From Bacteroidales bacterium (GTDB lineage Bacteria > Bacteroidota > Bacteroidia > Bacteroidales > JAIOZK01), in NCBI GenBank assembly GCA_021738625.1, contig JAIPBS010000001.1:62001-126000 (forward strand): 64,000 nucleotides of DNA. The letters run 5' to 3'. How positions within the stretch are numbered: position 1 is the stretch's first letter; every line of letters begins with the position of its first letter. This document shows, one piece after another, positions 38,411-59,036 of this stretch. The position numbers were made by a program, and so were the translations under genes. The notes under the pieces are model-generated. The model saw only the letters and a list, made by a program, of their open reading frames with translations. It did no database searches and was not told where the DNA came from.

Positions 38411-38445
38411 AACCTCATTTTTGTTTATTTTTGCAACACAGAACA

Positions 38446-39099
38446 ATGGCGGAGAAAAACATAAATATTATTATTGTTGATGACCATGAGATTTTCAGGA
38501 ATGGTTTGAAAATGGTCCTGAACAGACTTAAGTATGTCAACATCCTGGCGGAAGCCTCCAATGGCAAAGAATTCCTGGAGCTATTGCCCAACCATCATCC
38601 CGACATTGTATTGATGGACATTGAAATGCCTGTAATGAACGGGATAGAAGCCAGCGATAAAGCCATGAAAGAATACCCCGGCTTAAAGATCATTGCTCTG
38701 ACCATGTTCAATGATGATGAATACATTCAAAGCATGATCGACGCCGGTGTAAAGGGATTTCTTATCAAAAATATAAAAAAAGACATACTCGACCGGGCCT
38801 TGCAGGAAGTGAACAACGGAGGCAATTACTATTCTCAGGAACTCATGCAATTTTTTACCCGCCGGCTCACTAAGGAAGACGACAAAAGCAAGGAAGAGGA
38901 GTTGAATATCACCAAACGCGAAAAAGAGATCCTGCAACTGATGGCCGAGGGTATGAACAATAAGGAGATCGCCGACAGCCTTTTTGTAAGCGAGCGCACC
39001 ATCATCGGACACAAATCCAACCTGCTTGCAAAAACCGGCTGCAAAAACACCATCGGATTGCTTGCTTATGCCATTAAGAATAAGTTGGTTGAGATTTAA
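38446..39099 (+). CDS. NarL/LuxR-family response regulator
   Basis: IIIVDDHEIFRNGLK receiver; TKREKEILQLMAEGMNNKEIADSLFVSERTIIGHKSN HTH. Confidence 0.93.
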   Translation: MAEKNINIIIVDDHEIFRNGLKMVLNRLKYVNILAEASNGKEFLELLPNHHPDIVLMDIEMPVMNGIEASDKAMKEYPGLKIIALTMFNDDEYIQSMIDAGVKGFLIKNIKKDILDRALQEVNNGGNYYSQELMQFFTRRLTKEDDKSKEEELNITKREKEILQLMAEGMNNKEIADSLFVSERTIIGHKSNLLAKTGCKNTIGLLAYAIKNKLVEI

Positions 39100-43346: not shown

Positions 43347-43430
43347 TTTATATTTGTTTTGTTATAATTTTACCGACAGCAAAATTCCGCATTGGTCGCA
43401 CGGATAACCATATTGAAAAATCAGTATTTT

Positions 43431-44213
43431 ATGGAAAAACATCTCGGGGAATTACAAAAACAATATGAGGAACTGTATAAACTCCAGACCTTCCGGGAGG
43501 AAGATCTGGATTATTCAAGGTTGGATTACCATGTTGAATACCTGGAAAATATTCATATAATGAAAAACTCTTCCATCGCCATTTTCGATCTTTACAAAAG
43601 AGAACATGTTTTCATATCCTCCCGCAACGAATCTATACTGGGTTACGGTTCCGACCGGATTTTCAGAGATCCCATGCTCCACCTGGCGGTATTGATCCAC
43701 CCTGATGACCTGCTTATCCTGACAAAAAACGGTCTTAAGTATTTCCGTCTGGGGATTGAATACGCCAGGAATAACAAGAACATTCATGACTACAAATATA
43801 TCACCGATTACAGGATTCGTAAAAAAAGCGGTAAGTACGTCAGGGTGGTTGAGCAGCATATTTTGCTTGAAACGGATAAGAGCAATAATCTCTGGCTGGC
43901 CATGAGCGTGATGGACCTTTCTCCCGACAATGATCTTGCCACACCCTGCCGTGTGCGTCTTTTGAATACCAGAACAGGCGAGTTGTTCACATTTCAGGAT
44001 GAGGAAAACGGCCGCCGGGGTATTCTGAGCAAACGGGAAAAAGAAATTCTGCACCTGATATCAGAAGGGATGCCCAGCAAACTGATCGCCGACAAACTTT
44101 TCATTTCAACTCATACCGTAAACACCCATCGGCAAAATATCATTGAGAAGATGAAAGTTAACAATTCCGCAGAAGCCGTTCAATATGCATCTCGGCTTGG
44201 ATTGCTCGATTGA
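43431..44213 (+). CDS. LuxR-type HTH protein with PAS-like N-terminal domain
   Basis: LSKREKEILHLISEGMPSKLIADKLFISTHTVNTHRQNIIEKM; PAS-like region; ATG at 43431 preferred. Confidence 0.85.
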   Translation: MEKHLGELQKQYEELYKLQTFREEDLDYSRLDYHVEYLENIHIMKNSSIAIFDLYKREHVFISSRNESILGYGSDRIFRDPMLHLAVLIHPDDLLILTKNGLKYFRLGIEYARNNKNIHDYKYITDYRIRKKSGKYVRVVEQHILLETDKSNNLWLAMSVMDLSPDNDLATPCRVRLLNTRTGELFTFQDEENGRRGILSKREKEILHLISEGMPSKLIADKLFISTHTVNTHRQNIIEKMKVNNSAEAVQYASRLGLLD

Positions 44214-44523
44214 TGAATTTAAGAATTTGAGTCTGCCCCTAACATACATCAATTTAGATATCATTGCCCTACCCAATGAAATGGCATAGAATGCACAATC
44301 CTTACTTTTACAATTGTATTTTTTACGCAGGTAATAATATTTTTTTAATATTGTAACCCTCACCCCCAATATGTATCAAACTACATCCTCCCATTGCCGA
44401 AAAGTACTGGTTTTTCCGCTGAACCCTTCCGCTTTCTACAGCCTTAAAAAGGTACAAAAGTCTCTTACACGGTCCTGATTGCGCCCATAGATTTGTAACA
44501 TGAAATTTAACTCTAACGCAACA

Positions 44524-44973
44524 ATGGAACAAAAAATCAAAATAATGATTGTGGATGATCACGAAGTTTACCGCGAAGGCCTCAAAACAGCCCTCAACAA
44601 TGTGGTGAATTTCGAGGTTGTTGCTGAAGCATCAAACGGAATGGAGTTTCTGGAAATGATCGAAACCACCGATGTAGACGTCATCCTAATGGACGTCAAG
44701 ATGCCGGTGGTTAGCGGACTGGAAGCCACACGCATCGCCATGGAAAACAATCCGAACCTTAGGATCATCACCCTGAGCATGTACAATGAGGAAACCTTTA
44801 TCCGTCAGATGAAATCATACGGAGCCAGGAGTTACATCTTGAAAGGCTCCAATAAAAACGATCTGGTAAACACCATATATAATGTAGTTGCAGGGAAAAC
44901 ATTTTATCCCGTCGATTTCTCAAGAAATCAAATCAGTCAGAATAACAAAAAATTAATCACCTCAAAAAATTAA
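44524..44973 (+). CDS. Stand-alone NarL-type receiver domain (no HTH)
   Basis: IMIVDDHEVYREGLK...VILMDVKMP...ILKGS; protein ends before any HTH; start at MEQKIKIM preferred. Confidence 0.85.
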   Translation: MEQKIKIMIVDDHEVYREGLKTALNNVVNFEVVAEASNGMEFLEMIETTDVDVILMDVKMPVVSGLEATRIAMENNPNLRIITLSMYNEETFIRQMKSYGARSYILKGSNKNDLVNTIYNVVAGKTFYPVDFSRNQISQNNKKLITSKN

Positions 44974-44978
44974 AAGTC

Positions 44979-45476
44979 ATGGAAACAAAAGCAAAAATTT
45001 TGATCGTAGACGACGACATGGACATCATTACAGTTATGGAAACCATTCTTGAAAAAGAAGGTTATGATGTGATCACGGCCGGTAGCAAAACCGAAGCTCT
45101 TAATTTGGCCAAAGCCGAAAAACCCGACCTGGCCATACTTGACGTTATGATGTCGACACATTACGAAGGTTTCGAGCTGGCACAAGCCATGCACAAAGAC
45201 GCGGAACTGAAAAACATCCCGGTTCTGATACAAACCTCCATTGATGTGTTCGTTACAAACAACCCGAGTGTTCAGGAAATGGCACGCGAATACCGCAAGA
45301 ACCCCCAGTACAAAGATCTGCAGGTATTGCTGATCAAAAACGTACAAAGCGGAAACGCCGGTGTTGACTACCGCGCTGAAAACGGATCGTCCGTATGGGT
45401 TGATGTGAACGGTTTCCTTCGCAAACCGGTCGACCCCAGCAAACTGCTTCCCGAAGTTGAAAAACTTCTGAGCTAA
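44979..45476 (+). CDS. Stand-alone receiver-domain protein, first gene of the hydrogenase cluster
   Basis: ILIVDDDMDIITVMETIL...LAILDVMM...GFLRKPVDP. Confidence 0.88.
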   Translation: METKAKILIVDDDMDIITVMETILEKEGYDVITAGSKTEALNLAKAEKPDLAILDVMMSTHYEGFELAQAMHKDAELKNIPVLIQTSIDVFVTNNPSVQEMAREYRKNPQYKDLQVLLIKNVQSGNAGVDYRAENGSSVWVDVNGFLRKPVDPSKLLPEVEKLLS

Positions 45477-45526
45477 AAAACACGAATTAAACAATTGCTG
45501 TTGCAAACAGGAAAAGGAAAGAAACG

Positions 45527-46009
45527 ATGGAAAACACGGTTGAAAGCATCATGGAGCGTTACCCGAAGGCGGGAAGAGACAGCCTGATCCCGATCTTACA
45601 GGACATTCAGAACAAGCAGGGATATTTATCGGAGGAAGCCATCGTAAAAGTGGGGCAACGCCTGAAGCTGCCCGCGAGCAAGATCTTCGGCGTTGCAACC
45701 TTTTACAACCAATTCAGGTTTGAGCCCCTGGGCAAACACCACATACAGGTATGCCGGGGAACGGCCTGCCATGTGCTGGGTTCTTCTTCCGTGCTGGAAG
45801 AGCTGGAGAAACAGCTGAAGATCAAATCGGGGCAAACCACCCGCGATGGCCTCTTCAGCGTGGAAGTGGTAGCCTGCATTGGCGCCTGCGGACTGGCGCC
45901 TGTCATCGCCGTTAATGGCGAATTCCACGCCAGGGTAACAACAGATTCCATCGGGGAGATATTGGAAGAATACAAAGAAAAAGAGCTGGAGGGAGCAAAA
46001 CATGAATAA
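45527..46009 (+). CDS. hydC: NuoE-like [2Fe-2S] subunit of [FeFe]-hydrogenase (HydC/HndA-like)
   Basis: GVATFYNQFRFEPLGKHHIQVCRGTACHVLGS...VACIGACGLAPV. Confidence 0.93.
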   Translation: MENTVESIMERYPKAGRDSLIPILQDIQNKQGYLSEEAIVKVGQRLKLPASKIFGVATFYNQFRFEPLGKHHIQVCRGTACHVLGSSSVLEELEKQLKIKSGQTTRDGLFSVEVVACIGACGLAPVIAVNGEFHARVTTDSIGEILEEYKEKELEGAKHE

Positions 46010-47924
46010 GGAATTTTTGATAGAAAATGTGCTCGGCAGGAAGGGTAAAGGCGAGAGCCCTGAAGCAACTGAAATCCTGAACAGGCTCAGAAAAACAGAG
46101 GTAGACAGGCCGGTGGTTTACATCGGTGCAGGCACCTGCGGACTGGGCGCCGGGGCAGGCAAAGTGTTGAAAGCTATCGAACAATACATCCGCGATCACA
46201 ACCTTCAAATGGATGTGATCCAGGTGGGATGTATCGGGCTTTGCTCGGCTGAGCCGTTGATGGACGTGAAGCTCCCCGGGAAAAACAGGATCTCTTTCAG
46301 GAACATGAACGCGAAAGGCGCAACAGCAATTCTTGAAAACATACTTGAAGAAAAACTTCCCGAAGATCATATTCTCGGCCAGATCGGTCAGCCGGGACAG
46401 GAAGAATGGAAAGACGTCCCTCAACTGAAGGATCACTTCTTCTTTGCCCCTCAAAAGCGCCTGGTGCTTGAAAACTGCGGACTCATCGATCCGGTATGCA
46501 TCGAGGAATACATTGCGCAGGGCGGTTATCAGGCCCTGCTCAACACCCTCAGGACCATGGACCCTGCCGAGGTTTGCGGACTGATCGAAAAAAGCGGACT
46601 CAGAGGTCGCGGCGGCGGTGGGTTCCCCACGGGTTTGAAGTGGAAAATGGCCAATGCCAACCAGACCGATCAAAAATACCTGGTATGTAATGCCGATGAG
46701 GGCGACCCCGGTGCATTCATGGACAGGGCCGTGATCGAAGGCGATCCGCACAAGCTAATCGAGGGTATGGCCATTGGAGCCTACGCCATCGGCGCTTCAA
46801 AAGCATATGTTTACATCCGGGCTGAATACCCGCTGGCCATCGAAAGATTGGACAAAGCCATCAAAAAGGCAAAAGAATACGGACTGCTGGGAGAAAACAT
46901 TTTCGGTAGTGGCTTCAACCTGGAGCTGGTCATCAAGAAAGGCGCCGGAGCATTTGTTTGCGGTGAGGAAACCGCTTTGCTGCATAGCATCGAAGGGCGC
47001 CGCGGCATGCCGCGCCCGCGTCCCCCCTACCCTTCCGACAGCGGATTGTTTGGCAAACCGACCATCATCAACAATGTGGAAACGTTCTCGAATGTGGCCG
47101 GCATCATCAATCGCGGCGCGGATTGGTTCAGCAACATGGGAACCGAAAAAAGCAAAGGCACCAAGGTGTTTGCGCTCAGCGGCAGAATAGCCAATACCGG
47201 CCTGGTGGAGATTCCCATGGGTACCACCGTAAGGGATATCATTTATAAGATAGCCGGCGGATTGTCGGGTGAGAAAAAATTCAAAGCCGTACAGATGGGT
47301 GGGCCATCAGGCGGCTGTGTTACGGAAGAAAACCTCGACATACAAATCGACTACGACTCCCTGCTGAGCGTTGGCGCCATGATGGGATCGGGCGGTATGG
47401 TGGTCATGGACGAAAGTACCTGTATGGTGGATGTGGCCATGTATTTCATGGACTTCATCCAGCGTGAAAGTTGCGGGAAATGCATCCCCTGCCGGGAAGG
47501 TACACGCAGGATGCTTGAGATACTTGAAAGCATCACCACCAAGCCGACCAACGGGCATGATACCCTGCACAGATTTAAAGGGATCACCCAGCTTGAAAAA
47601 TTAGGTGACACCATCAAGGACACCTCGCTTTGCGGACTGGGCAACAGCGCACCCAACCCGGTACTCAGCACCCTGCGCTGGTTCAGGGATGAATACGAAA
47701 CACATGTGTTTGAAAGAACCTGTCCGGCCGGCGTGTGCCAGAACCTCAGGCTGTTCAGCATCGATGTGGACAAATGTACCGGATGTACGGCCTGCGTCAG
47801 GAAATGCCCGACCAATGCCATCATCGGAGCCAGGAAAAAACCGCACTTCATTGTGGAAGACAAATGCATTAGCTGCGGCTCATGCCTGGAAACATGTAAG
47901 TTCGACGCCATCGTAGTAAGTTGA
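46002..47924 (+). CDS. hydB: NuoF-like flavoprotein subunit of [FeFe]-hydrogenase (HydB/HndC-like)
   Basis: N-terminal [2Fe-2S] region, GLRGRGGGGFPTGLKW, NADEGDPGAFMDR, ESCGKCIPCREGTRRM, C-terminal CTGCTACVRKCP and CISCGSCLETC. Confidence 0.95.
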   Translation: MNKEFLIENVLGRKGKGESPEATEILNRLRKTEVDRPVVYIGAGTCGLGAGAGKVLKAIEQYIRDHNLQMDVIQVGCIGLCSAEPLMDVKLPGKNRISFRNMNAKGATAILENILEEKLPEDHILGQIGQPGQEEWKDVPQLKDHFFFAPQKRLVLENCGLIDPVCIEEYIAQGGYQALLNTLRTMDPAEVCGLIEKSGLRGRGGGGFPTGLKWKMANANQTDQKYLVCNADEGDPGAFMDRAVIEGDPHKLIEGMAIGAYAIGASKAYVYIRAEYPLAIERLDKAIKKAKEYGLLGENIFGSGFNLELVIKKGAGAFVCGEETALLHSIEGRRGMPRPRPPYPSDSGLFGKPTIINNVETFSNVAGIINRGADWFSNMGTEKSKGTKVFALSGRIANTGLVEIPMGTTVRDIIYKIAGGLSGEKKFKAVQMGGPSGGCVTEENLDIQIDYDSLLSVGAMMGSGGMVVMDESTCMVDVAMYFMDFIQRESCGKCIPCREGTRRMLEILESITTKPTNGHDTLHRFKGITQLEKLGDTIKDTSLCGLGNSAPNPVLSTLRWFRDEYETHVFERTCPAGVCQNLRLFSIDVDKCTGCTACVRKCPTNAIIGARKKPHFIVEDKCISCGSCLETCKFDAIVVS

Positions 47925-47951
47925 TTGTGGGATCATTAAAGGAGAAAAGAA

Positions 47952-49676
47952 ATGGACTTTACAATAGAAGTTAACAACAATAAAGTTGAAGCACAGAAAG
48001 GGGAAACCATACTGACCCTGTTGAATCGCAACGGCATCCAGGTGCCTACCCTCTGCTACATGAAGGATATGTTCCCCACCGGATCATGCCGCATGTGCGT
48101 GGTGGAAGTGGAAGGCAGAAGGAACCTTGTAACAGCTTGTTCCGAGCCGGTTTATCCCGATATGAAGATCAAAACACACTCAGCCCGTGTGGTGGAATCC
48201 CGCAAGATGATCGTGGAGCTATTGCTGTCGAATCATCCCGACGACTGTCTGTACTGCGAGCGCAATAACAACTGCGAACTGCAGGGACTGGCAAACACGC
48301 TTAGCGTGAGGGAAAGAAGAATTTCAGGCAATAAAAACGATTACAAGATCGATCAGTCGAGCCCCAGCATTGTCCGTGATCCTGCGAAATGTATTTTATG
48401 TGGAAGATGTGTGAGGGTGTGTGAAGAAATTGAAGGCGTTTCCGCCATCGACTATATCAACCGTGGTAGCAAAACTGTGGTCGGAACACCTTACAACAAA
48501 GGTTTGAATGTATCGAGCTGTATCAACTGCGGACAGTGCATCATGGTATGCCCCACCGGCGCCCTGCACGAAAAACCGCATTTCCCGGAAATATCAGCCG
48601 CCATACAGGACCCTGAAAAAACCGTTGTGGTGCAGTATGCACCCGCCATTTCAGTTTCCATTGCCGAAGAGTTCGGGCTGGAACCCGGCAAAGATATGAT
48701 CGGGGTGCTGAACACGGCTTTAAGAAAGATCGGGTTCAACTTTGTATTCGACACCTCTTTCTCAGCCGACCTCACCATCATGGAAGAATCGGCGGAGCTG
48801 ATCGATCGCATACAGAACAAGGGCAGGCTACCCATGATCACCAGCTGTTGCCCCGCCTGGGTGAAATATGCAGAAGAATTCCAGGAAGATTACCTGGATC
48901 ATGTTTCCAGCTGCAAATCACCCCAGCAAATGATGGGTGCCCTGGTGAAAAGCTATTTTGCAGAAAAGAAACAACTGGATCCAAAAAATATTTATTCCGT
49001 CTCCATCATGCCTTGCACAGCCAAGAAATTTGAGCAGCAAAGGGATGAAATGACACATGAGGGGATCACGGATATTGACGCCGTGTTAACCACCCGCGAA
49101 CTGGTGAAGATCATAAAAATGTACGGCATCGACCTGAACAAGCTGGAACCTGAACTGACCGATTCCCCCCTGGGCATGAGAAGTTCTTCCGGAAAGATTT
49201 TCGGCACTTCGGGCGGGGTGATGGAAGCAGCCGTCAGGACGGCTTACTACAAACTAACGGGCGAAGACCTGACGCAGTTCCGCATTCCTTCGTTGCGCGG
49301 TAACGAAGGCCGGAAAGAAGCCAAACTCAACATCAACGGACTCGAACTGGGCGTTGCCGTGGTTAGCGGTCTGCAAAAGGCAGCTGATCTGCTTGAAGAA
49401 ATCAAGAACGGCAAAGACGACATTCATTTCATCGAGGTGATGGCATGTCCGGGCGGTTGTATCAACGGAGGCGGCCAGGCCATCGGAGCCAACGAAGAAG
49501 CCGTGATGAAAAGAATGAAAAGTTTGTATGATATAGATGAAACTGATTCGGTAAAGTTTTCTCATAAGAATCCATATATCAAGGAGCTGTATGAGCGATT
49601 CCTGGGCGAGGCCCTGGGGCATAAAAGCCATGAACTGCTGCATACCACATACAAGAAAAGAGAAGTGATGTTATAA
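47952..49676 (+). CDS. hydA: [FeFe]-hydrogenase catalytic subunit
   Basis: Intact H-cluster motifs TSCCPAW (L1), MPCTAKKFE (L2), MACPGGCINGGGQ (L3); N-terminal [2Fe-2S], two 4Fe-4S motifs; C-terminal small-subunit-like region. Confidence 0.97.
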   Translation: MDFTIEVNNNKVEAQKGETILTLLNRNGIQVPTLCYMKDMFPTGSCRMCVVEVEGRRNLVTACSEPVYPDMKIKTHSARVVESRKMIVELLLSNHPDDCLYCERNNNCELQGLANTLSVRERRISGNKNDYKIDQSSPSIVRDPAKCILCGRCVRVCEEIEGVSAIDYINRGSKTVVGTPYNKGLNVSSCINCGQCIMVCPTGALHEKPHFPEISAAIQDPEKTVVVQYAPAISVSIAEEFGLEPGKDMIGVLNTALRKIGFNFVFDTSFSADLTIMEESAELIDRIQNKGRLPMITSCCPAWVKYAEEFQEDYLDHVSSCKSPQQMMGALVKSYFAEKKQLDPKNIYSVSIMPCTAKKFEQQRDEMTHEGITDIDAVLTTRELVKIIKMYGIDLNKLEPELTDSPLGMRSSSGKIFGTSGGVMEAAVRTAYYKLTGEDLTQFRIPSLRGNEGRKEAKLNINGLELGVAVVSGLQKAADLLEEIKNGKDDIHFIEVMACPGGCINGGGQAIGANEEAVMKRMKSLYDIDETDSVKFSHKNPYIKELYERFLGEALGHKSHELLHTTYKKREVML

Positions 49677-49695
49677 AGTAAGGAAACAGCACGAT

Positions 49696-51687
49696 ATGAC
49701 AAACAAAGGCACATACGACCAACTGGTATTCACTGAAAAAGACAAATGCAGGGTATGCTATACCTGCGTCAGGGAATGCCCCGTGAAGGCCATCAAGATT
49801 TCTGATGGGCAGGCGGAGGTCATGCATGAGCGTTGTATCGCCTGTGGCAATTGTGTGAAGGTATGCAGCCAGGGAGCCAAGGTATTCCTTTCGACCATAG
49901 AGGCCGTCGAACGCCTGCTTGAATCAGGGGAAAAAACGGCAGCCATCGTGGCGCCCAGCTTTCCCGCTGAATTCAGTGAAGTGGATGAGTACGGATTGTT
50001 TGTCGGAATGCTACGGAAACTTGGGTTTGATTATGTTAATGAAGTGGCTTTCGGCGCCGACATGGTTTCAAGGGAATACAAGGATTTGCTCGACAAAAGC
50101 GACGGGCCCTGGATTTCATCGGATTGTCCTGCAATTGTAAATTACATCAGGCACTATCACTCCAATCTGATCGAAAACCTGGCGCCCATCGCTTCTCCTA
50201 TGGTTGCCGTTACGCGCATCCTCAAAAAGAAATATGGCGACAAGTTGCGGGTGGTCTTCATCGGACCCTGCATCGCCAAAAAAGCCGAATCATCAGAGGT
50301 GGACGCCGTCCTCACCTTTAAGGAATTAAAATTAATGTTTGAAGCAAAGAAAATCACCCCCGGCGTGGTGGGGTCCTCACAATTTGACCCTCCTCATGCC
50401 GGTAAAGGTTCAATTTTTCCCATCAGCCGGGGGTTGCTTCAAAACATGGGCATACAGGAAGACATCAGCGAAGGAAATGTGACGGTTGCCGCCGGCAGGC
50501 AGAACTTCCGGGAAGCCATCAACGAATTTGAAAACAGACAACTGGAATCCAAACACCTGGAGTTGCTTTGCTGCGACGGATGCATCCTGGGAGCAGGTAT
50601 GAGCGCCCCGGGCAAGAAATATGCACGCCGCGCAAGAGTGACCAAATTTGTTCAAGACAAACTGAAAAACATTGACAATGATCAGTGGGAAAAAGATATA
50701 GAAGATTTTAAGGAAGTTGATTACCGCCAGGAATTTGATGCCGCCGACAGGCAGATCAATGAACCCTCGGAAGAACAAATCAGGAGAGTGCTCAAAAGCA
50801 TGGGCAAAACCAAAGAGATAGACCTGCTGAACTGCGGGGCCTGCGGTTACGACACCTGCCGTGAGCATGCCATCGCGATCGTGCAGGGTCTGGCCGAGAA
50901 TGAGATGTGCCTGCCCTTCACCATCGAAAGGCTGCACAATTCCATTGACAAGCTAAATTTCTCGAACAGGGAACTGGCCAACGCCAAGATGGCCCTGAAA
51001 CAATCGGAAAAGCTGGCCCATATGGGACAACTTTCAGCCGGCATCGCTCACGAGCTGAACAATCCGTTGGGCGTGATCACCATGTACAGCAACATCCTGA
51101 AAGACGAATCAAAACAAGATGACCCCGTTCGCCAGGACCTGGAGCTGATCGTAGAACAAACCGACCGCTGCAGGAAAATTGTGGGCGGACTGCTCAACTT
51201 TGCAAGGCAGAACCAGGTAAAGCTCAGCGATACCGATATGGATGAGTTCATTAAAAACAGCATCAGCTCCATCATCAAACCTAAAAACGTTAAGATCAGT
51301 TATGAGAACAAGGCTCAAGATACAATCGCAAAGATCGACAGGGACCAGATGATGCAGGTGCTGACCAACCTGGAAAAGAACGCGGTGGAAGCCATGCCGC
51401 AAGAAGGCGAGCTCAGGCTTTCGCTGGAAGATGATAAAGATTACATCATCATCAACATAAGCGATACGGGCGGTGGAATCCCCCCGGAAAACATGGAAAA
51501 ACTGTTTACGCCTTTCTTCACCACCAAGGAGATCGGCAAAGGCACCGGGCTCGGACTTCCGCTGGTTTACGGTATCGTGAAGATGCACAAAGGAAAAATT
51601 GATGTGAAATCCAATACGGATACGGACAAAGGCCCGACAGGCACCACCTTCATCCTGCGGATTCCAAGAGATAAAGACCAATTGTAA
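49696..51687 (+). CDS. Hydrogenase-like H-cluster protein fused to histidine kinase (putative sensory [FeFe]-hydrogenase)
   Basis: CRVCYTCVRECP and CIACGNCVKVC; SSDCPAIV, GPCIAKKAE, LCCDGCILGAG; CGACGYDTC cluster domain; LSAGIAHELNNPLGVI H box and ATPase domain. Confidence 0.93.
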   Translation: MTNKGTYDQLVFTEKDKCRVCYTCVRECPVKAIKISDGQAEVMHERCIACGNCVKVCSQGAKVFLSTIEAVERLLESGEKTAAIVAPSFPAEFSEVDEYGLFVGMLRKLGFDYVNEVAFGADMVSREYKDLLDKSDGPWISSDCPAIVNYIRHYHSNLIENLAPIASPMVAVTRILKKKYGDKLRVVFIGPCIAKKAESSEVDAVLTFKELKLMFEAKKITPGVVGSSQFDPPHAGKGSIFPISRGLLQNMGIQEDISEGNVTVAAGRQNFREAINEFENRQLESKHLELLCCDGCILGAGMSAPGKKYARRARVTKFVQDKLKNIDNDQWEKDIEDFKEVDYRQEFDAADRQINEPSEEQIRRVLKSMGKTKEIDLLNCGACGYDTCREHAIAIVQGLAENEMCLPFTIERLHNSIDKLNFSNRELANAKMALKQSEKLAHMGQLSAGIAHELNNPLGVITMYSNILKDESKQDDPVRQDLELIVEQTDRCRKIVGGLLNFARQNQVKLSDTDMDEFIKNSISSIIKPKNVKISYENKAQDTIAKIDRDQMMQVLTNLEKNAVEAMPQEGELRLSLEDDKDYIIINISDTGGGIPPENMEKLFTPFFTTKEIGKGTGLGLPLVYGIVKMHKGKIDVKSNTDTDKGPTGTTFILRIPRDKDQL

Positions 51688-51708
51688 ATGATTTAAAGCT
51701 GAAATGAG

Positions 51709-52104
51709 ATGAATAGCGAAATGAAGAAAATATTGCTGGTTGACGACGACATGGATTATCTGTTCGTGACCAAATCCACCATCAAAAACATGGGATTTGA
51801 AGTCGTTACCGCTGAAGGGCAGAAAGAAGCAGAGGAGAAAATCAAGGAATTCAGGCCTGATCTGGCCATACTCGACCTGATGATGGAAAATGAAGACAGC
51901 GGATTCATCCTCAGCTACAAGCTTAAAAAAAAATATCCGGATGTGCCGGTGATCATCGCCACTTCGGTGACGGCCGAAACCGGCTACACATTCGACCTGA
52001 GCGCTCCCGGTGAAAAGCAATGGATCAAAGCCGATATGTATATGGACAAAGGCATACGCAAAGACCAGCTGCAGCGTGAGATCAGGAAACTGTTAAAACT
52101 TTAA
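51709..52104 (+). CDS. Stand-alone receiver-domain protein
   Basis: ILLVDDDMDYLFVTKSTI...LAILDLMM...YMDKGI. Confidence 0.88.
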   Translation: MNSEMKKILLVDDDMDYLFVTKSTIKNMGFEVVTAEGQKEAEEKIKEFRPDLAILDLMMENEDSGFILSYKLKKKYPDVPVIIATSVTAETGYTFDLSAPGEKQWIKADMYMDKGIRKDQLQREIRKLLKL

Positions 52105-52131
52105 TTGTTAAACATTTTAATCCTCAACACC

Positions 52132-53277
52132 ATGGCAACATTAAAAACATTGATCGTTGATGACGAGCCCGGGATCAGATCGGGAATCAACCGGATCCTG
52201 CGAAATTTCAGCGTTGGCTATCCGTTCATGGATGAGGATTTTGACTTCGATGCCATTGATGCAGCAACCGGAGAAGAAGCCATTGAAATCCTCAACAGCC
52301 AACAGATCGACATTGTTTTGCTCGACAACAAATTGCCGGGCATGGACGGGATCGATGTGCTGGAATACATCAACAAAAAACAAATGGACCTGGCCGTGAT
52401 GATGATCACCTCCTATGCTTCACTGGAACTGGCCATCAAGGCAACCAATAACGGGGCATACAATTTCGTGCCCAAACCATTCACCCCCGATGAACTGAGG
52501 TCTTCCATCGAGAATATCGCCAAACACCTTTTCCTGAAAAGGATGACACGCCGTATGCAAGAGGAAGGAAAACAGATCCGCTTCCAGTTTTTGTCGGTGC
52601 TGTCGCATGAGCTGAAATCACCACTCAACGCCGTTGAAGGATACCTGAAAATGATGCAGGAACGGCAGGTGGGCGATAAGCTGGATGACTACGAAAAAAT
52701 GATCGACCGCTCGCTGGTCAGGATCAAAGGCATGCGCAGCCTCATCATGGACCTGCTCGATCTTACCAAACTCGAATCGGGTAAAAAACAAAAAGAACTT
52801 AAAAAGATCGACCTGAATGATGTGGCAAAAATGGCCATAGACACCATGGAGCCCTATGCCATACAAAGAAATGTGAAGGTAAACTTCGACCCGGTGGAAG
52901 ACGCCACCCTGACAGCGGATGTCGAAGAAATGGAGATCATCTTCAACAACCTGATATCCAATGCCATCAAATACAATAAAGATGGCGGACAGGTAAATGT
53001 TTTCCTGAAACCGGATGATCTGAACATCAGCATCAGAGTTGAAGATACCGGCATCGGCATGTCGGAGGAAGAGCTTTCGAACATCTTCCAGGAATTTGTC
53101 AGGATCAAAAACCAGAAAACCCGCCAGATCACGGGTAGCGGCCTTGGTCTGTCGATCGTGAAAAAACTCACGGAAGAATACGGAGGCGACATCCATGTGA
53201 AAAGCAAGCCCGATGTGGGCAGCACTTTTACGGTGATCCTTCCGGGAACTTTAACAAACAAACCTAAGCAGTCATGA
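52132..53277 (+). CDS. Receiver-histidine kinase hybrid
   Basis: LIVDDEPGIRSGINRIL..VLLDNKLPGMDG..KPFTPDEL then FLSVLSHELKSPLNAVEGYL, NLISNAIKYN, DTGIGM, GSGLGLSIV. Confidence 0.92.
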   Translation: MATLKTLIVDDEPGIRSGINRILRNFSVGYPFMDEDFDFDAIDAATGEEAIEILNSQQIDIVLLDNKLPGMDGIDVLEYINKKQMDLAVMMITSYASLELAIKATNNGAYNFVPKPFTPDELRSSIENIAKHLFLKRMTRRMQEEGKQIRFQFLSVLSHELKSPLNAVEGYLKMMQERQVGDKLDDYEKMIDRSLVRIKGMRSLIMDLLDLTKLESGKKQKELKKIDLNDVAKMAIDTMEPYAIQRNVKVNFDPVEDATLTADVEEMEIIFNNLISNAIKYNKDGGQVNVFLKPDDLNISIRVEDTGIGMSEEELSNIFQEFVRIKNQKTRQITGSGLGLSIVKKLTEEYGGDIHVKSKPDVGSTFTVILPGTLTNKPKQS

Positions 53278-54704
53278 AATTTATTCCGGGAAAATATAAG
53301 ATCCGGGATGAGTCGATGAAGCCTTTCATCGATTCGGAGGAAATATGGTCTTACCTCAAACAAGAAGCTCCCTCCCGGGAACGGGTAAGGGAAGTGATCG
53401 CCAGATCGCTGGACAAGAAAAGACTCAGCCTAGAAGAAACGGCCGTATTGCTCAACACCAGCGATCCGGAAATGATAGAAGAGATCAAAGCCGGCGCCAA
53501 AGCGCTTAAAGAAAAGGTATATGGCAACAGGATCGTGCTGTTTGCCCCGATGTATATTGGCAACCACTGCTCCAACAATTGCAGATATTGCGGATTCAGG
53601 GCCTCAAACAGGGAAGCCATAAGAAAAACATTGAACAGGGAGGAGATCATTACGAATGTGGAAGCCCTGGAAGAAAACGGACAAAAACGACTGATCCTCG
53701 TTTACGGGGAACACAAAAACTATTCTCCCGAATACATCGCCGAAACAGTGAAGACGGTTTACGAAGTGAAGAAGGGAAAGGGCGAGATCAGGAGAGTCAA
53801 TATAAATGCTGCGCCTTTGGACATCGAAGGATACAAAACAGTGAAGGAAGCAGGGATAGGAACGTATCAGGTGTTTCAGGAAACCTATCATCCTAAAGCA
53901 TACAAATGGTACCATCCTTCGGGAAAAAAGGCAGATTATGATTACAGATTGGTATCACTGGACCGGGCCATGGAAGCAGGGATAGATGATGTTGGGATTG
54001 GTGCTTTGTTTGGTTTATATGACTGGCGTTTTGAGGTGATGGGCCTGGTCCGGCATACCAATCATCTGGAGGCTTGTTACAATGTGGGACCGCATACGAT
54101 TTCGTTTCCGCGTTTGCAGAATGCCTCCGCTTATGATATTGATCCGAAATACACTGTTTCGGATGAGGAGTTTATCAGGCTGGTAGCCGTCCTGCGGTTG
54201 GCCGTGCCCTACACTGGCATGATTCTGACGGCAAGGGAGCCAAAGCACATCAGGGAGAAAGTGCTGGAGTTCGGCGTCAGCCAGATCGATGCGGGTACGA
54301 AAATCGAGATCGGCGCTTATTCTGACAAGAAACCGCCCAACCTGCAAGACCTCAACCGGGAACAGTTCCGGATCAATGACGAACGTTCTTTAAATGATGT
54401 GATCGATGAATTGCTGGAAAAGAATATGCTCCCCTCCTTCTGTACGGCATGTTATAGGCTGGGCAGAACCGGCGAGCACTTCATGGAGTTTTCCGTTCCG
54501 GGGTTCATCAAAAGGTATTGCACCCCCAATGCCATTCTCACCCTGGCCGAATACCTGGTGGATTATGCCGGTGAAGAAACGGCCCGCAAAGGCTGGCAGG
54601 TGATCGAACAAAACAAAAAACAGATCGAGGGATTCAGGAATATGGATGAACTGGATAGAAGGATTGAAAGGATAAAGGAAGGGGAAAGAGATATTTATTT
54701 CTAA
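53274..54704 (+). CDS. hydG: [FeFe]-hydrogenase maturase HydG
   Basis: NHCSNNCRYCGFRASNR CX3CX2C; C-terminal CTACYRLGRTGEHFM. Confidence 0.96.
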   Translation: MKFIPGKYKIRDESMKPFIDSEEIWSYLKQEAPSRERVREVIARSLDKKRLSLEETAVLLNTSDPEMIEEIKAGAKALKEKVYGNRIVLFAPMYIGNHCSNNCRYCGFRASNREAIRKTLNREEIITNVEALEENGQKRLILVYGEHKNYSPEYIAETVKTVYEVKKGKGEIRRVNINAAPLDIEGYKTVKEAGIGTYQVFQETYHPKAYKWYHPSGKKADYDYRLVSLDRAMEAGIDDVGIGALFGLYDWRFEVMGLVRHTNHLEACYNVGPHTISFPRLQNASAYDIDPKYTVSDEEFIRLVAVLRLAVPYTGMILTAREPKHIREKVLEFGVSQIDAGTKIEIGAYSDKKPPNLQDLNREQFRINDERSLNDVIDELLEKNMLPSFCTACYRLGRTGEHFMEFSVPGFIKRYCTPNAILTLAEYLVDYAGEETARKGWQVIEQNKKQIEGFRNMDELDRRIERIKEGERDIYF

Positions 54705-54716
54705 TTCCAGATCATT

Positions 54717-54784
54717 GGGGTCTGGTAATTTTGAAAAGATTCCTCGCTTCGCTCGGAATGACAATCTATTTGGAGGATACAGTG
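54717..54784. repeat. Nested-palindrome element, copy D (half copy)
   Basis: aattttgaaaagattcctcgcttcgctcggaatgacaatctatttggaggatacag; matches left half of copy B. Confidence 0.75.
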
Positions 54785-54852
54785 CAAGTTTGAGATTTTG
54801 AGATTTGGTGCTTTAATGAAGAGAATAGTTAACAATATAAAAAATAAATAAA

Positions 54853-56061
54853 ATGTCACGCGGCAGAGACACGAAACCACATATCGGCATCTTCGGACGC
54901 CGGAATTTTGGCAAGAGCTCCTTCATCAATACTTTGGTGAAACAGGATATTGCCATTGTATCGGATCAGCCGGGCACCACCACCGACCCGGTAAAGAAAT
55001 CCATTGAGATCTTCGGCATCGGTCCTGCAGTGATGATCGACACGGCAGGTATTGACGATACCGGGGAACTGGGAATGAAACGGATCAAAAAATCGGTGGA
55101 TGTGATCCGTTCTATCGACCTGGCTATTCTGATGATCGCACAAAACACCTTTGGCAATTATGAAGCGGAACTGATCGACAAGTTCAGTCAATACGATGTG
55201 CCTTACATCATCGTACACAACAAATCGGATATCGAGGCATTGAAACCCGATATGCTCAGCAAGCTGAACGGCTATGCAAAAGAAGACCTTATCGAATTCA
55301 GCTCGGTTGATCCAATCAACCTCGAAACGGTGATCGATCGCATGCGGAAGACCATACCCGAAACCGCCTATCAAAACCCTTCCCTGCTGGGGGACCTGGT
55401 GAATAAAGGTGATATCGTATTGCTGATCACCCCCATCGACTCGGAAGCCCCCGACGGAAGGATGATCCTGCCGCAGGTGATGGCCATCAGGGATGTGCTC
55501 GACAACGATTGCGTGAACATCGTGCTGAAGGAAGATGCCGTGGAAGACTTTTTGAAAAAAACAAACATCAAACCGGCCCTGGCCGTTACCGACAGCCAGA
55601 TGTTTGATCTGGTAGATAAAATGCTGCCCGAAGACATCCCCCTCACAAGCTTTAGCATACTGTTTGCAAGGATGCGTGGGCCGTTTGAAAAATATATTGA
55701 AGGGGCCGCGAAAATTGAGGCATTGCATGAAAACGAGCGGATACTTATATTGGAATCCTGCACCCATCAGGTAAGCTGCGACGACATCGGGCGTTTTAAG
55801 ATTCCCGGTTGGATCAAAAAGCATACCGGGAAAAACATCGAATTTGATGTGGTGGCCAGCCTGAACAAGCTCCCCCGCCCGATCACCAAATATGCCCTGG
55901 TGATCCAGTGCGGAGGCTGCGTGATCACAAGGAAACAACTTGCAGGAAGACTCAAACCGGCCATTGATGCCGGCATTCCGGTGACAAATTATGGCATGGC
56001 CATTTCTTATTTACACGGCATATTCGACAGGGCCATTGCACCATTTTTTAACTATGATTGA
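54853..56061 (+). CDS. hydF: [FeFe]-hydrogenase maturation GTPase HydF
   Basis: GRRNFGKSSFINTL P-loop; CTH...CGGC C-terminal cluster ligands. Confidence 0.96.
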   Translation: MSRGRDTKPHIGIFGRRNFGKSSFINTLVKQDIAIVSDQPGTTTDPVKKSIEIFGIGPAVMIDTAGIDDTGELGMKRIKKSVDVIRSIDLAILMIAQNTFGNYEAELIDKFSQYDVPYIIVHNKSDIEALKPDMLSKLNGYAKEDLIEFSSVDPINLETVIDRMRKTIPETAYQNPSLLGDLVNKGDIVLLITPIDSEAPDGRMILPQVMAIRDVLDNDCVNIVLKEDAVEDFLKKTNIKPALAVTDSQMFDLVDKMLPEDIPLTSFSILFARMRGPFEKYIEGAAKIEALHENERILILESCTHQVSCDDIGRFKIPGWIKKHTGKNIEFDVVASLNKLPRPITKYALVIQCGGCVITRKQLAGRLKPAIDAGIPVTNYGMAISYLHGIFDRAIAPFFNYD

Positions 56062-57152
56062 ATACAATGAAAAACAGCTCTCTATATAATAATTTGGTTA
56101 ATGAATGTTCACGCGAAAACGTGGCAAAACTTCTAAGCGTTGATTCGGAGGTTGAATTAAACGAGCTGTATAAACATGCATTAAACACAAAAAAGCAGTT
56201 CACGGGCAACAACATCTACTTGAGGGGTTTGATCGAATTGTCAAACATCTGCCTTAAAAACTGCTTTTATTGCGGCATCCGCAGAGGGAACGGAAAGGTT
56301 GAAAGATACCAGATGGGATTTAGGGAGATTGTGGATGCCGCTGTTTATGCATGGAAGAATAAATTCGGATCCATTGTGATCCAGTCCGGTGAAAGGAACG
56401 ACAAAGCTTTTGTTTTGTATATCGAAGAATTGCTGGAAGAGATTCACCGGCGAACCAATCATGAATTGGGCGTTACGCTAAGCCTGGGCGAACAAACAGA
56501 AGAAACCTATAAAAGATGGTTTGAGCGCGGAGCCCATCGTTACCTGCTGCGCATCGAAAGCAGCAACGAAGATCTGTTTTACAAGATCCATCCCAAAGAT
56601 GAGCGGCATTCATACACCAAACGGTTAAAAGCGCTGGAAACCATTAAAAAGACAGGGTATCAAACCGGAACGGGGATAATGATCGGACTTCCCTTTCAAA
56701 CAATTGATCACCTGGCAGACGACCTGATCTTTATAAAAGAATTCGGTATCGACATGGTGGGCATGGGCCCTTACCTGGAACATGAGGACACCCCACTTTA
56801 CGAACACAGGCATCTGATTCCCTCCTCTGCCGTCAGGTTCAGGCGCACGCTCAATATGATCGCAAGCTTAAGGCTGCTGATGCCCAATATCAATATTGCA
56901 TCGGCCACGGCCCTTGAAACCCTCGACCCCAATGGCAGGATCATGGCATTACAGGCAGGCGCCAATGTATTTATGCCTAACCTCACACCGGAAGAAAACG
57001 CCATCAATTATTTCCTTTATAAAAACAAACCCCTTTACAATGGGCAAGTTATAAAATACCTGAAGGATTTTGAGGTCAAACTGCAGAAGAGCGCACAATT
57101 GATCGGTTACGGAGAGCAGGGAAATTCACAGAGATACGCAGCCCGTGTGTAA
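56058..57152 (+). CDS. hydE: [FeFe]-hydrogenase maturase HydE
   Basis: NICLKNCFYCGIRRGN; overlaps hydF stop; HydE-like GIMIGLPFQT. Confidence 0.95.
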   Translation: MNTMKNSSLYNNLVNECSRENVAKLLSVDSEVELNELYKHALNTKKQFTGNNIYLRGLIELSNICLKNCFYCGIRRGNGKVERYQMGFREIVDAAVYAWKNKFGSIVIQSGERNDKAFVLYIEELLEEIHRRTNHELGVTLSLGEQTEETYKRWFERGAHRYLLRIESSNEDLFYKIHPKDERHSYTKRLKALETIKKTGYQTGTGIMIGLPFQTIDHLADDLIFIKEFGIDMVGMGPYLEHEDTPLYEHRHLIPSSAVRFRRTLNMIASLRLLMPNINIASATALETLDPNGRIMALQAGANVFMPNLTPEENAINYFLYKNKPLYNGQVIKYLKDFEVKLQKSAQLIGYGEQGNSQRYAARV

Positions 57153-57257
57153 ATATGCCTGTGCCTTTGTATTATTCAGGGATTTGTCGGGGAAATCTTT
57201 TATATTTGTCTATTGGGAAAGATGATCTAACAATAGATTAATTGAAGGCATTGCTAT

Positions 57258-59036
57258 ATGAAACTTAAGCTCGCACCCAAGCTCAGAATATTCCTGCCGA
57301 TCTTTGTTGCAATCATTATTTCCGTATCCGTGATCACCATCGTTTCGATCAACATCTCTAAAAACTCACTCAACATTTTCATTAAAGAAAACCTACAACT
57401 GGAGGTTAAAACCCTGGTTAAAATGTTCGAGAGAGAATATGCCCTGAAACTCGAACAGGTGAAAACCGACCTGCATGTGGCCCATGATTATTTCTATTCA
57501 AAGCCATTCCGTACAACAAACCGGCAAATTGAATTCACGGCCATCAACCAGATCAGTGGAAAACAGCACCAGGTAAATGTAAGCCAATGGCTTTTAGATG
57601 GTGAGCAAATCCAGAAGCAATTCAGCTTTGTTGATCAGATGCAGGATCTATTGGGCGGCACGGCTACCATTTTTCAGAAAATCGACAGCGGCTACCTGCG
57701 GATCAGCACCAACGTGCCCGATGATGAAGGAGGACGGGCCATCGGCACATACATACCCAATTTCTCTCCCGTGGTTCAATCCATCGAAAAAGGCGAAGCC
57801 TATTTCGGAAGGGCCTTTGTGGTGAACGATTGGTACATCACCGCCTACGAGCCCATCCGGCATGAAAATCAGATCATTGGAATGCTATATGTTGGCAGCC
57901 CCGAGAAGGATATAGCCGAACTGAGAGAAATTGTTCTGGATCTGAAAATCGGTAAAAGCGGGTTTCCTTTTGTGTTCGATGACAATGCCACCTTCATCAT
58001 CCATCCTGTTTCGGAAGGAGAAAACTGGGCACATCTCGAGTTTATGCAAAAGATCATGGAGATAAAAAAAGGCACCCTGCGTTATTACTCTCCAACAACC
58101 GAAACCAGCCGTTTTATGGCCTTCGAGTATTTCGAGGGGTTTCACTTTTATGTCGGCGCCACCATTGATCCGGGTATAGAAACACGCAATCTGGTTAGCA
58201 CCATCGTATTTAACTCAATCCTTATCGGGCTGGTCATTCTGATATTGCTTTCCGCATTTGTATATTTTGTTGCCGCAGAAAACATCCACAAGTTTTTACA
58301 GACCATCGAGATCTCAAACGAAAAACTCAGTTCGGCGCGCGAAGCCCTAAAGCGTTCTGAAAAGCTTGCCGAACTCGGTCAGCTATCGGCAAGGATCGTT
58401 CAGGAGATCAGCGAGCCCCTGAAGAGTATCACCGACAACACCAAATCCATTAAAGAAGAGTTCGACCAAGACTCTTCCGTTTACAATCAGTTGGATAAAA
58501 TCGGCCGGGAAGCGGAAAAAAGCAAGAGCATCCTTTCGGGTATCCTAACATTTGCCGAAGGCCAGAAACTCACCCTGAAAGAAACCAACATCAACGATAT
58601 GATGGAAATGGTGATCAGGGACATTGAATTGCCGGCGAACATCAATCTTACTTTCATTAAAGATCCCGATAACGCCATGGCTTTCCTGGATACCGGAATG
58701 ATGATACAGGCCATTCGGAACTTACTGAACAACGCAGTAGAATCGGTCATAGACGAAGGGCAGGTGACAGTTGAAAATATTTCCGACCCTGATTACCTAA
58801 CCATCAGGATAAAAGACAACGGGCCGGGCATTTCCAAAAAAGATACCGGAAAAATATTTGAACCTTTCTACACTCTGCGCGACAGCATTGTACCTAAAGC
58901 CGGACTTGGCCTGTCGGTATCCTATGGGATCATCAAAATGCATCGCGGAAAAATTGAGCTTAAAACAAATAACGACCCGGCAAAAGGAAGCACTTTCACA
59001 GAATTCATCATTAACTTGCCCAGAAATTATTCTTAA
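57258..59036 (+). CDS. Cache-domain sensor histidine kinase-like protein lacking the phospho-acceptor His
   Basis: N-terminal TM, periplasmic Cache-like region, second TM; LSARIVQEISEPLKSI in place of the H box; NLLNNAVES, DNGPG, AGLGLSVSYG ATPase motifs. Confidence 0.88.
   Translation: MKLKLAPKLRIFLPIFVAIIISVSVITIVSINISKNSLNIFIKENLQLEVKTLVKMFEREYALKLEQVKTDLHVAHDYFYSKPFRTTNRQIEFTAINQISGKQHQVNVSQWLLDGEQIQKQFSFVDQMQDLLGGTATIFQKIDSGYLRISTNVPDDEGGRAIGTYIPNFSPVVQSIEKGEAYFGRAFVVNDWYITAYEPIRHENQIIGMLYVGSPEKDIAELREIVLDLKIGKSGFPFVFDDNATFIIHPVSEGENWAHLEFMQKIMEIKKGTLRYYSPTTETSRFMAFEYFEGFHFYVGATIDPGIETRNLVSTIVFNSILIGLVILILLSAFVYFVAAENIHKFLQTIEISNEKLSSAREALKRSEKLAELGQLSARIVQEISEPLKSITDNTKSIKEEFDQDSSVYNQLDKIGREAEKSKSILSGILTFAEGQKLTLKETNINDMMEMVIRDIELPANINLTFIKDPDNAMAFLDTGMMIQAIRNLLNNAVESVIDEGQVTVENISDPDYLTIRIKDNGPGISKKDTGKIFEPFYTLRDSIVPKAGLGLSVSYGIIKMHRGKIELKTNNDPAKGSTFTEFIINLPRNYS

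Follow-up and report, generated by a model that had tools for sequence, protein, structure and literature searches.

A bifurcating-type [FeFe]-hydrogenase operon encoding a putative kinase-fused sensory hydrogenase and conserved two-component partners in a Bacteroidales bacterium

We analysed a 64,000-nucleotide stretch of a Bacteroidales genome (contig JAIPBS010000001.1, forward-strand positions 62,001 to 126,000; hereafter the window), and within it an operon of eleven listed genes (44979-59036) encoding a bifurcating-type [FeFe]-hydrogenase with its maturases, together with five signalling proteins. An earlier reading of the letters and open reading frames (ORFs) alone (the sequence-only reading) had proposed this operon, and all eleven ORFs are present where it placed them on the forward strand, which also carries every other window feature described below. 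Its assignments were borne out for all eleven genes by Pfam and NCBIfam searches; Pfam likewise recovered the three receiver domains in these genes, one of which sits inside recHK, and gave no DNA-binding domain in any of the five signalling proteins. Intergenic distances range from -8 to +50 bp, except between hydG and hydF (148 bp) and between hydE and cacheHK (105 bp).

The operon as such stands, but its start had been placed too far downstream. An additional ORF, recN (44500-44973), encodes a receiver-only protein of the NarL receiver family (Pfam Response_reg only), ends 5 bp before the single-domain receiver gene rec1 (44979-45476, Pfam) and is 77% identical to its counterpart in the sister genome G001. 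It is the first gene found of the operon, which is at least one gene longer than the sequence-only reading had it. Upstream of recN we noted a candidate Bacteroidota-type promoter -7 element, TAGATTTG (44488-44495), a pattern match that is weak, as a good -33 element was not found. Another Bacteroidota-type -7 match, TATATTTG, occurs at 57201 inside the 105-bp gap preceding cacheHK, so that this last gene may form a transcription unit of its own. The gene 3' of cacheHK, which we take by eye from its sequence to encode ribosomal protein S20, indicates that the operon probably ends at cacheHK.

The enzyme genes follow rec1. The product of nuoE (45527-46009; HydC or BfuC), a [2Fe-2S] thioredoxin-like protein, matches PF01257 and the NuoE family of NCBIfam. 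The nuoF product (46002-47924; HydB or BfuB) combines Nuo51 FMN-binding, SLBB and NADH_4Fe-4S domains with two C-terminal [4Fe-4S] sites (Pfam and NCBIfam); PF01512, PF10589 and Fer4 score above cut-off and SLBB slightly under it (26.0 against 27 bits). FMN-binding, SLBB, NADH_4Fe-4S and ferredoxin-type domains are those by which BfuB is defined (PMC9304861). The catalytic subunit HydA (47952-49676; BfuA) scores 815.6 bits, with a cut-off of 765, against NF040763, the NCBIfam model of NADH-dependent hydrogenase, has PF13510, PF10588, Fer4 and PF02906 all above cut-off, and retains intact P1 (TSCCPAW), P2 (MPCTAKK) and P3 (MACPGGC) motifs. The proposal that this trimer is of the bifurcating type agrees with the Bfu family domains found in NuoE, NuoF and HydA, which by domain criteria would constitute a BfuABC enzyme (group A3) for which bifurcation itself is predicted. 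The maturases HydG (53274-54704, TIGR03955), HydF (54853-56061, TIGR03918) and HydE (56058-57152, TIGR03956) each exceed the NCBIfam equivalog cut-off. Only two PF02906 proteins are encoded in the genome, HydA and HydS, both at this locus.

HydS (49696-51687; BfuT), a sensory [FeFe]-hydrogenase-histidine kinase fusion of 663 residues, was characterised by Pfam searches, a 74-member alignment and a structure model. It begins with two [4Fe-4S] sites carrying eight invariant Cys (residues 13-61; 49732-49878; Pfam, alignment), followed by an H-cluster-like domain (residues 80-300; 49933-50595; PF02906, 165 bits), a C-terminal FeS domain of the form Cx2Cx4Cx16C (Cys380/383/388/405; 50827-50916; PF04060, invariant in 74) and a HisKA and HATPase_c kinase core (51022-51672; Pfam, alignment). 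No PAS domain was found between the FeS domain and HisKA in the Pfam search. All Fe-S and H-cluster Cys (including C144, C192, C293 and C296) and the phospho-acceptor His452 are invariant among the 74 aligned homologs, and the N and G boxes are present; judged by this His and the ATP-binding boxes, the kinase is intact. The predicted model has a pLDDT of 87, and its N-terminal half resembles [FeFe]-hydrogenases in the PDB. The H-cluster motifs are altered, with P1 reading SDCPA (C299 to D) and P2 reading GPCIAKK (M353 to G), where 299 and 353 are CpI positions and the window residue at 299 is D143, and P3 is reduced to CxxC (C293/C296). With CxxC in every homolog and Asp at 299, HydS differs from a catalytic [FeFe]-hydrogenase, and it agrees with the group C sensory class in having lost the proton-path Cys299 while keeping the H-cluster Cys and an exact Cx2Cx4Cx16C domain. 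The Asp at 299 corresponds to the CpI C299D variant (structure 6glz), a substitution reported to keep activity.

The stretch joining the C-terminal FeS domain to the kinase is constrained in length. From Cys405 to the phospho-acceptor His452 it measures 47 residues (50908-51051), as established by comparing spacings among homologs, and in all 111 measurable distinct homologs the corresponding distance is either 47 (92 proteins) or 40 (19 proteins), values that differ by exactly one heptad. For control spacings measured within these proteins, between five and nine values were seen, mostly non-multiples of 7 apart (n=103, the homologs among the 111 in which every landmark was found). Leucines occupy the HydS linker at positions 413, 420, 427 and 434, in steps of seven residues. 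In photoreceptor kinases heptad linker phase sets kinase output and is an established sign of coiled-coil signalling (PMC6798134). The linker phase suggests mechanical coupling of the C-terminal cluster domain to the kinase.

Immediately downstream of hydS lie rec2 (51709-52104), a single-domain receiver, and recHK (52105-53277), a receiver-HisKA-HATPase protein (both by Pfam). We compared the locus with homologous loci (denoted L) in genome sequences (denoted G) that are mostly metagenome-assembled genomes (MAGs), with taxon names as deposited. The order nuoE-nuoF-hydA-hydS is kept in 86 of 115 distinct loci, and hydS-rec2-recHK or rec2-hydS-recHK in 94 of the 115, spanning at least seven phyla (Bacteroidota, Planctomycetota, Acidobacteriota, Myxococcota, Neomarinimicrobiota, Hydrogenedentota, Melainabacteria and others). 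Catalytic residues are invariant in rec2 (Asp56 and Lys114 in 96 orthologs), in recHK (Asp74, Lys124 and His168 in 79 orthologs, with N and G boxes present) and in rec1 (Asp55 and Lys149 in 19 orthologs). Conservation of gene order is far beyond chance; the sequence-only reading had named loss of gene order in relatives as a test that could refute it, and the HydS-rec2-recHK core is kept in many phyla with catalytic residues intact. Trees built from the loci collected here place rec1 clusters differently, HydA joining them to clusters with a Cache kinase in the HydS slot and to non-Bacteroidota clusters (support 99) and HydS joining them to other Bacteroidales (support 98). This conflict suggests that the histories of the catalytic and the sensory module are partly separate, although long branches may contribute. 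In nine loci (L089, L090, L092, L093, L096, L098, L099, L102 and L103) a second gene set stands directly after recHK, comprising a rec2-like gene, a NuoE-like, a NuoF-like (~400 aa) and a HydA-like gene (~638 aa), and another kinase.

The sensor in this arrangement is not the same in all relatives. In G055 (L211) and G457 (L248), which belong to different genera of a single family, the order is nuoE-nuoF-hydA-[Cache kinase]-rec2-recHK, and the Cache kinase filling the HydS slot has an intact His and shares the kinase signature of HydS; in L249 a Cache kinase of the HydS kinase family is located between rec1 and recHK. As rec2-recHK thus appears to serve any sensor in that slot, it looks like a common unit that acts downstream of a sensor open to exchange. 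The window carries a relative of these kinases at the end of the operon. The cacheHK product (57258-59036), with Cache_3 and Cache_2 domains and a kinase core of the HydS type (Pfam, alignment), is the closest paralog of the HydS kinase within the genome and gives Cache and HATPase matches in Pfam without a HisKA match. Its phospho-His position is occupied by Gln in the window and by Lys in G001, while related Cache kinases (L207, L211, L248-L251) keep His. This bears out the earlier description of the protein as pseudokinase-like, and cacheHK is by sequence a pseudokinase at the level of the genus.

The sequence-only reading left the output of the signalling proteins open; a candidate output to DNA can now be named from related clusters, where a DNA-binding NarL regulator stands by the cassette and has an ortholog in the window. 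A full NarL protein and a Cache/PAS-HisKA_3 kinase frequently accompany rec1-bearing clusters (L109, L252-L255, L154 and others). The window encodes a NarL/LuxR-type response regulator (38431-39099; Pfam Response_reg and GerE HTH) behind comEC, which is 62-72% identical to the NarL proteins of L254, L253, L081, L205, L206 and L208, all of which lie in or beside hydrogenase clusters or beside the Cache-HisKA_3 kinases of those clusters. No other NarL protein in its genome is more than 50% identical to it, and its counterpart in G001 is 84% identical. This regulator is the ortholog of the cluster NarL and probably the DNA-binding output of the circuit. We considered recN as a mere truncation of the cluster NarL and set this aside, as L208 and L129 each have a full NarL as well as a receiver-only gene and the window NarL ortholog lies elsewhere. 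A PAS-LuxR regulator without a receiver domain is encoded 286 bp upstream of recN (43392-44213), an arrangement that the sister genome does not share; as an output it was set aside as weak, with no G001 match beyond recN and none labelled near other clusters.

Other lineages have a Rex gene within the cassette. In many non-Bacteroidota clusters (L160, L165, L166, L173, L177 and L185 among them) nuoE is immediately preceded by a Rex-type repressor gene, which implies NADH control of the cassette in those clusters. Rex control inside the window operon was rejected, the full-length Rex of the genome being on another contig, beside hyp maturation genes. Neither Rex nor a second hydS gene (hydS2) accompanies rec1 in any of 18 loci, against 64 of 97 loci lacking rec1. 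We do not treat this as mutual exclusion, striking as it is, since on the HydA tree rec1 needs only two changes and there are two to three independent pairs, and with so few independent events shared descent can explain the pattern.

Control of hydrogenase expression by a hydrogenase-like sensor that drives a histidine kinase is familiar from HoxBC-HoxJ (HydDB [NiFe] group 2b). There the sensor is an unrelated [NiFe] protein and the PAS-kinase is separate, whereas HydS is of the [FeFe] type and forms one polypeptide with its kinase. Closer to the present locus, a kinase-fused sensory hydrogenase beside a bifurcating hydrogenase is already published. BfuABC clusters of sub-type V with a kinase-type BfuT (HydDB group C3) have been reported from Hydrogenedentota, Calditrichota and Bacteroidota (PMC11406978), and share with the window the C-B-A-T order, T being a sensory [FeFe]-hydrogenase that carries a histidine kinase domain and lies beside a group A3 enzyme; in the window hydS lies directly 3' of hydA in this order, with HisKA and HATPase present. 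The main text of that study nowhere mentions response regulators, and the study gives no account of rec2, recHK, rec1, NarL or the Cache kinase, nor of sensor replacement and linker phase. Its Bacteroidota members with a second upstream bfuT correspond to our hydS2-type clusters, and the window has no second bfuT.

Among other group C and D proteins, TmHydS of Thermotoga maritima (group C, M2f; PMC10055695) resembles HydS in its two N-terminal [4Fe-4S] sites, its C-terminal [4Fe-4S] domain, an H-domain without the Cys299 equivalent and Gly at the Met353 position. TmHydS, however, has a PAS domain, whereas in HydS the FeS domain runs straight into HisKA and Asp stands at 299, and in view of the missing PAS we do not file HydS as M2f. 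TamHydS (group D, M2e; PMC8163306, PMC13104023) shares the Cx2Cx4Cx16C domain, the lack of PAS and a gene position near a bifurcating hydrogenase, but has no kinase domain and is flanked by a separate HATPase protein, whereas the HydS kinase is fused. The kinase-linked [FeFe]-hydrogenases of HydDB group C1 (PMC5037454; e.g. Petrimonas mucosa, PMC7768429) are, like HydS, putative H2 sensors near bifurcating genes; published labels of kinase-bearing members are divided between C1 and C3, and group C overall is regarded as a putative sensor class (PMC5037454, PMC8163306, PMC10055695). In the literature searched, which took in few subscription journals, we found neither response regulators with sensory [FeFe]-hydrogenases nor the rec2/recHK partnership, sensor replacement, linker phase or NarL link.

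We consider it fairly probable that the locus is a hydrogenase operon of the sub-type V Bfu layout with a conserved two-component circuit. Its architecture, conservation, catalytic residues, linker phase and sensor replacement are read from the sequences themselves, and from them we infer an H2 signal, an order of phosphotransfer and autoregulation. The H-cluster-like domain of HydS would react with H2, or be reduced by the same redox pool, and the change of state would pass through the C-terminal [4Fe-4S] domain to a parallel coiled coil whose heptad phase is fixed and which switches the DHp/HATPase kinase. Phosphoryl groups would then reach the rec2 receiver and the N-terminal receiver of recHK, whose kinase would thereby be reset, and the NarL-type regulator (here 38431-39099; beside rec1 in related clusters) would take the output to DNA. 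The Cache pseudokinase would supply a second, periplasmic input, its phospho-acceptor having been lost in the window genus, and it may dimerise with members of the HydS kinase family or modulate them. More tentatively, as a serious possibility that we stop short of favouring, HydS-rec2-recHK may be a widespread dedicated H2-sensing phosphorelay with a rebuilt P3, a kinase driven directly by way of the C-terminal [4Fe-4S] domain and a coiled coil locked in heptad phase, an interchangeable sensor slot (H-cluster or Cache) and a DNA output swapped between lineages (NarL, Rex or a phosphatase branch).

Several observations weigh against such a circuit. P3 is CxxC in 74 of 74 homologs, one residue shorter than the catalytic CxxxC, so that binding of the 2Fe subcluster by HydS is not assured. 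This motif is the chief ground for caution over H2 as the presumed ligand; given the CxxC a redox-only sensor is also possible, in which HydS would hold the [4Fe-4S] cubane only, or a crippled H-cluster, and ferredoxin or NADH state would drive the kinase. We regard this as rather unlikely. The [NiFe]-Bfu A subunit does have a [4Fe-4S] at the H-cluster position (PMC9304861), and many sister cassettes encode the NADH sensor Rex, but HydS conserves the four H-cluster Cys, the P2 Lys and an A-P-S stretch (equivalent to CpI A230-P231-S232), and Asp at 299, found in nearly all Bacteroidales HydS-type members, is the one substitution reported to keep activity. TmHydS, moreover, tolerates the same class of change (M353G, M497S) and binds the 2Fe cofactor.

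As the structure model is uncertain at residues 425-455, the coiled coil is read from sequence phase. In the window genus the NarL gene lies 5.4 kb from the operon without an adjacent cognate kinase. NarL regulators usually partner HisKA_3 kinases, and the HydS kinase is of the HisKA type. Targets away from this locus are also conceivable for recHK. The rec2-recHK pair could be a general two-component hub for wider metabolism (anaerobic or Cache-ligand responses) with the hydrogenase as one input and not the target: Cache kinases occupy the HydS slot in L211 and L248 and pair with rec1/recHK apart from catalytic hydrogenase genes in L249 and L207, and the cassette itself contains no DNA-binding protein. 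The cassette is nevertheless joined to hydrogenase genes in most loci, often followed by maturases or Rex, and we think a general hub improbable, though it deserves to be kept in mind. That an ordinary bifurcating hydrogenase operon merely adjoins unrelated two-component genes, with no circuit, would fit the MAG origin of the data, the degenerate Cache gene and the variable recN/NarL arrangement, but is very hard to reconcile with a six-gene order across many phyla, invariant catalytic residues and an invariant linker phase, and we consider it highly improbable.

Sensory [FeFe]-hydrogenases have long been proposed while their signalling route is still open, and work from 2026 disputes that the signal is a change in redox state of the C-terminal cluster (PMC13104023). 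The cluster domain, fused in nature to a kinase through a heptad-fixed linker, would give a direct readout of sensor signalling, with rec2 and recHK as conserved partners and the Cache kinases found in the HydS slot serving as ready controls. It would also show how hydrogenase expression in many anaerobes may be matched to H2.

Related clusters yielded some further observations. In L119 (1914-5094) and about 40 similar Bacteroidales loci a divergently transcribed second HydS of ~620 aa, probably the published second bfuT, lies upstream of nuoE and adjoins a SpoIIE-type phosphatase, and its H-domain Cys are lost in some members (e.g. FYNEGC). In HydA of the hydS2-type clusters L077, L080 and L086 the P1/P2 motifs are altered (e.g. 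SSACPAW, ISSCTAAK), which suggests that the catalytic sites have changed or are impaired. L208 (8017-9786) encodes a 441-aa group D-like hydrogenase with no kinase, beside an RsbW-like HATPase, and rec1, NarL and a HisKA_3 kinase are nearby in that genome. The nuoF ORFs of L165, L173 and L175 (Planctomycetota/Acidobacteriota clusters) are 1088-1112 aa long, with ~450 extra residues fused. Finally, another contig of the window's own genome (L210, G000:C15) carries a NuoE-NuoF fusion, a HoxU-like gene, hyp maturation genes and Rex together, which suggests a second, [NiFe]-type NAD-linked hydrogenase.

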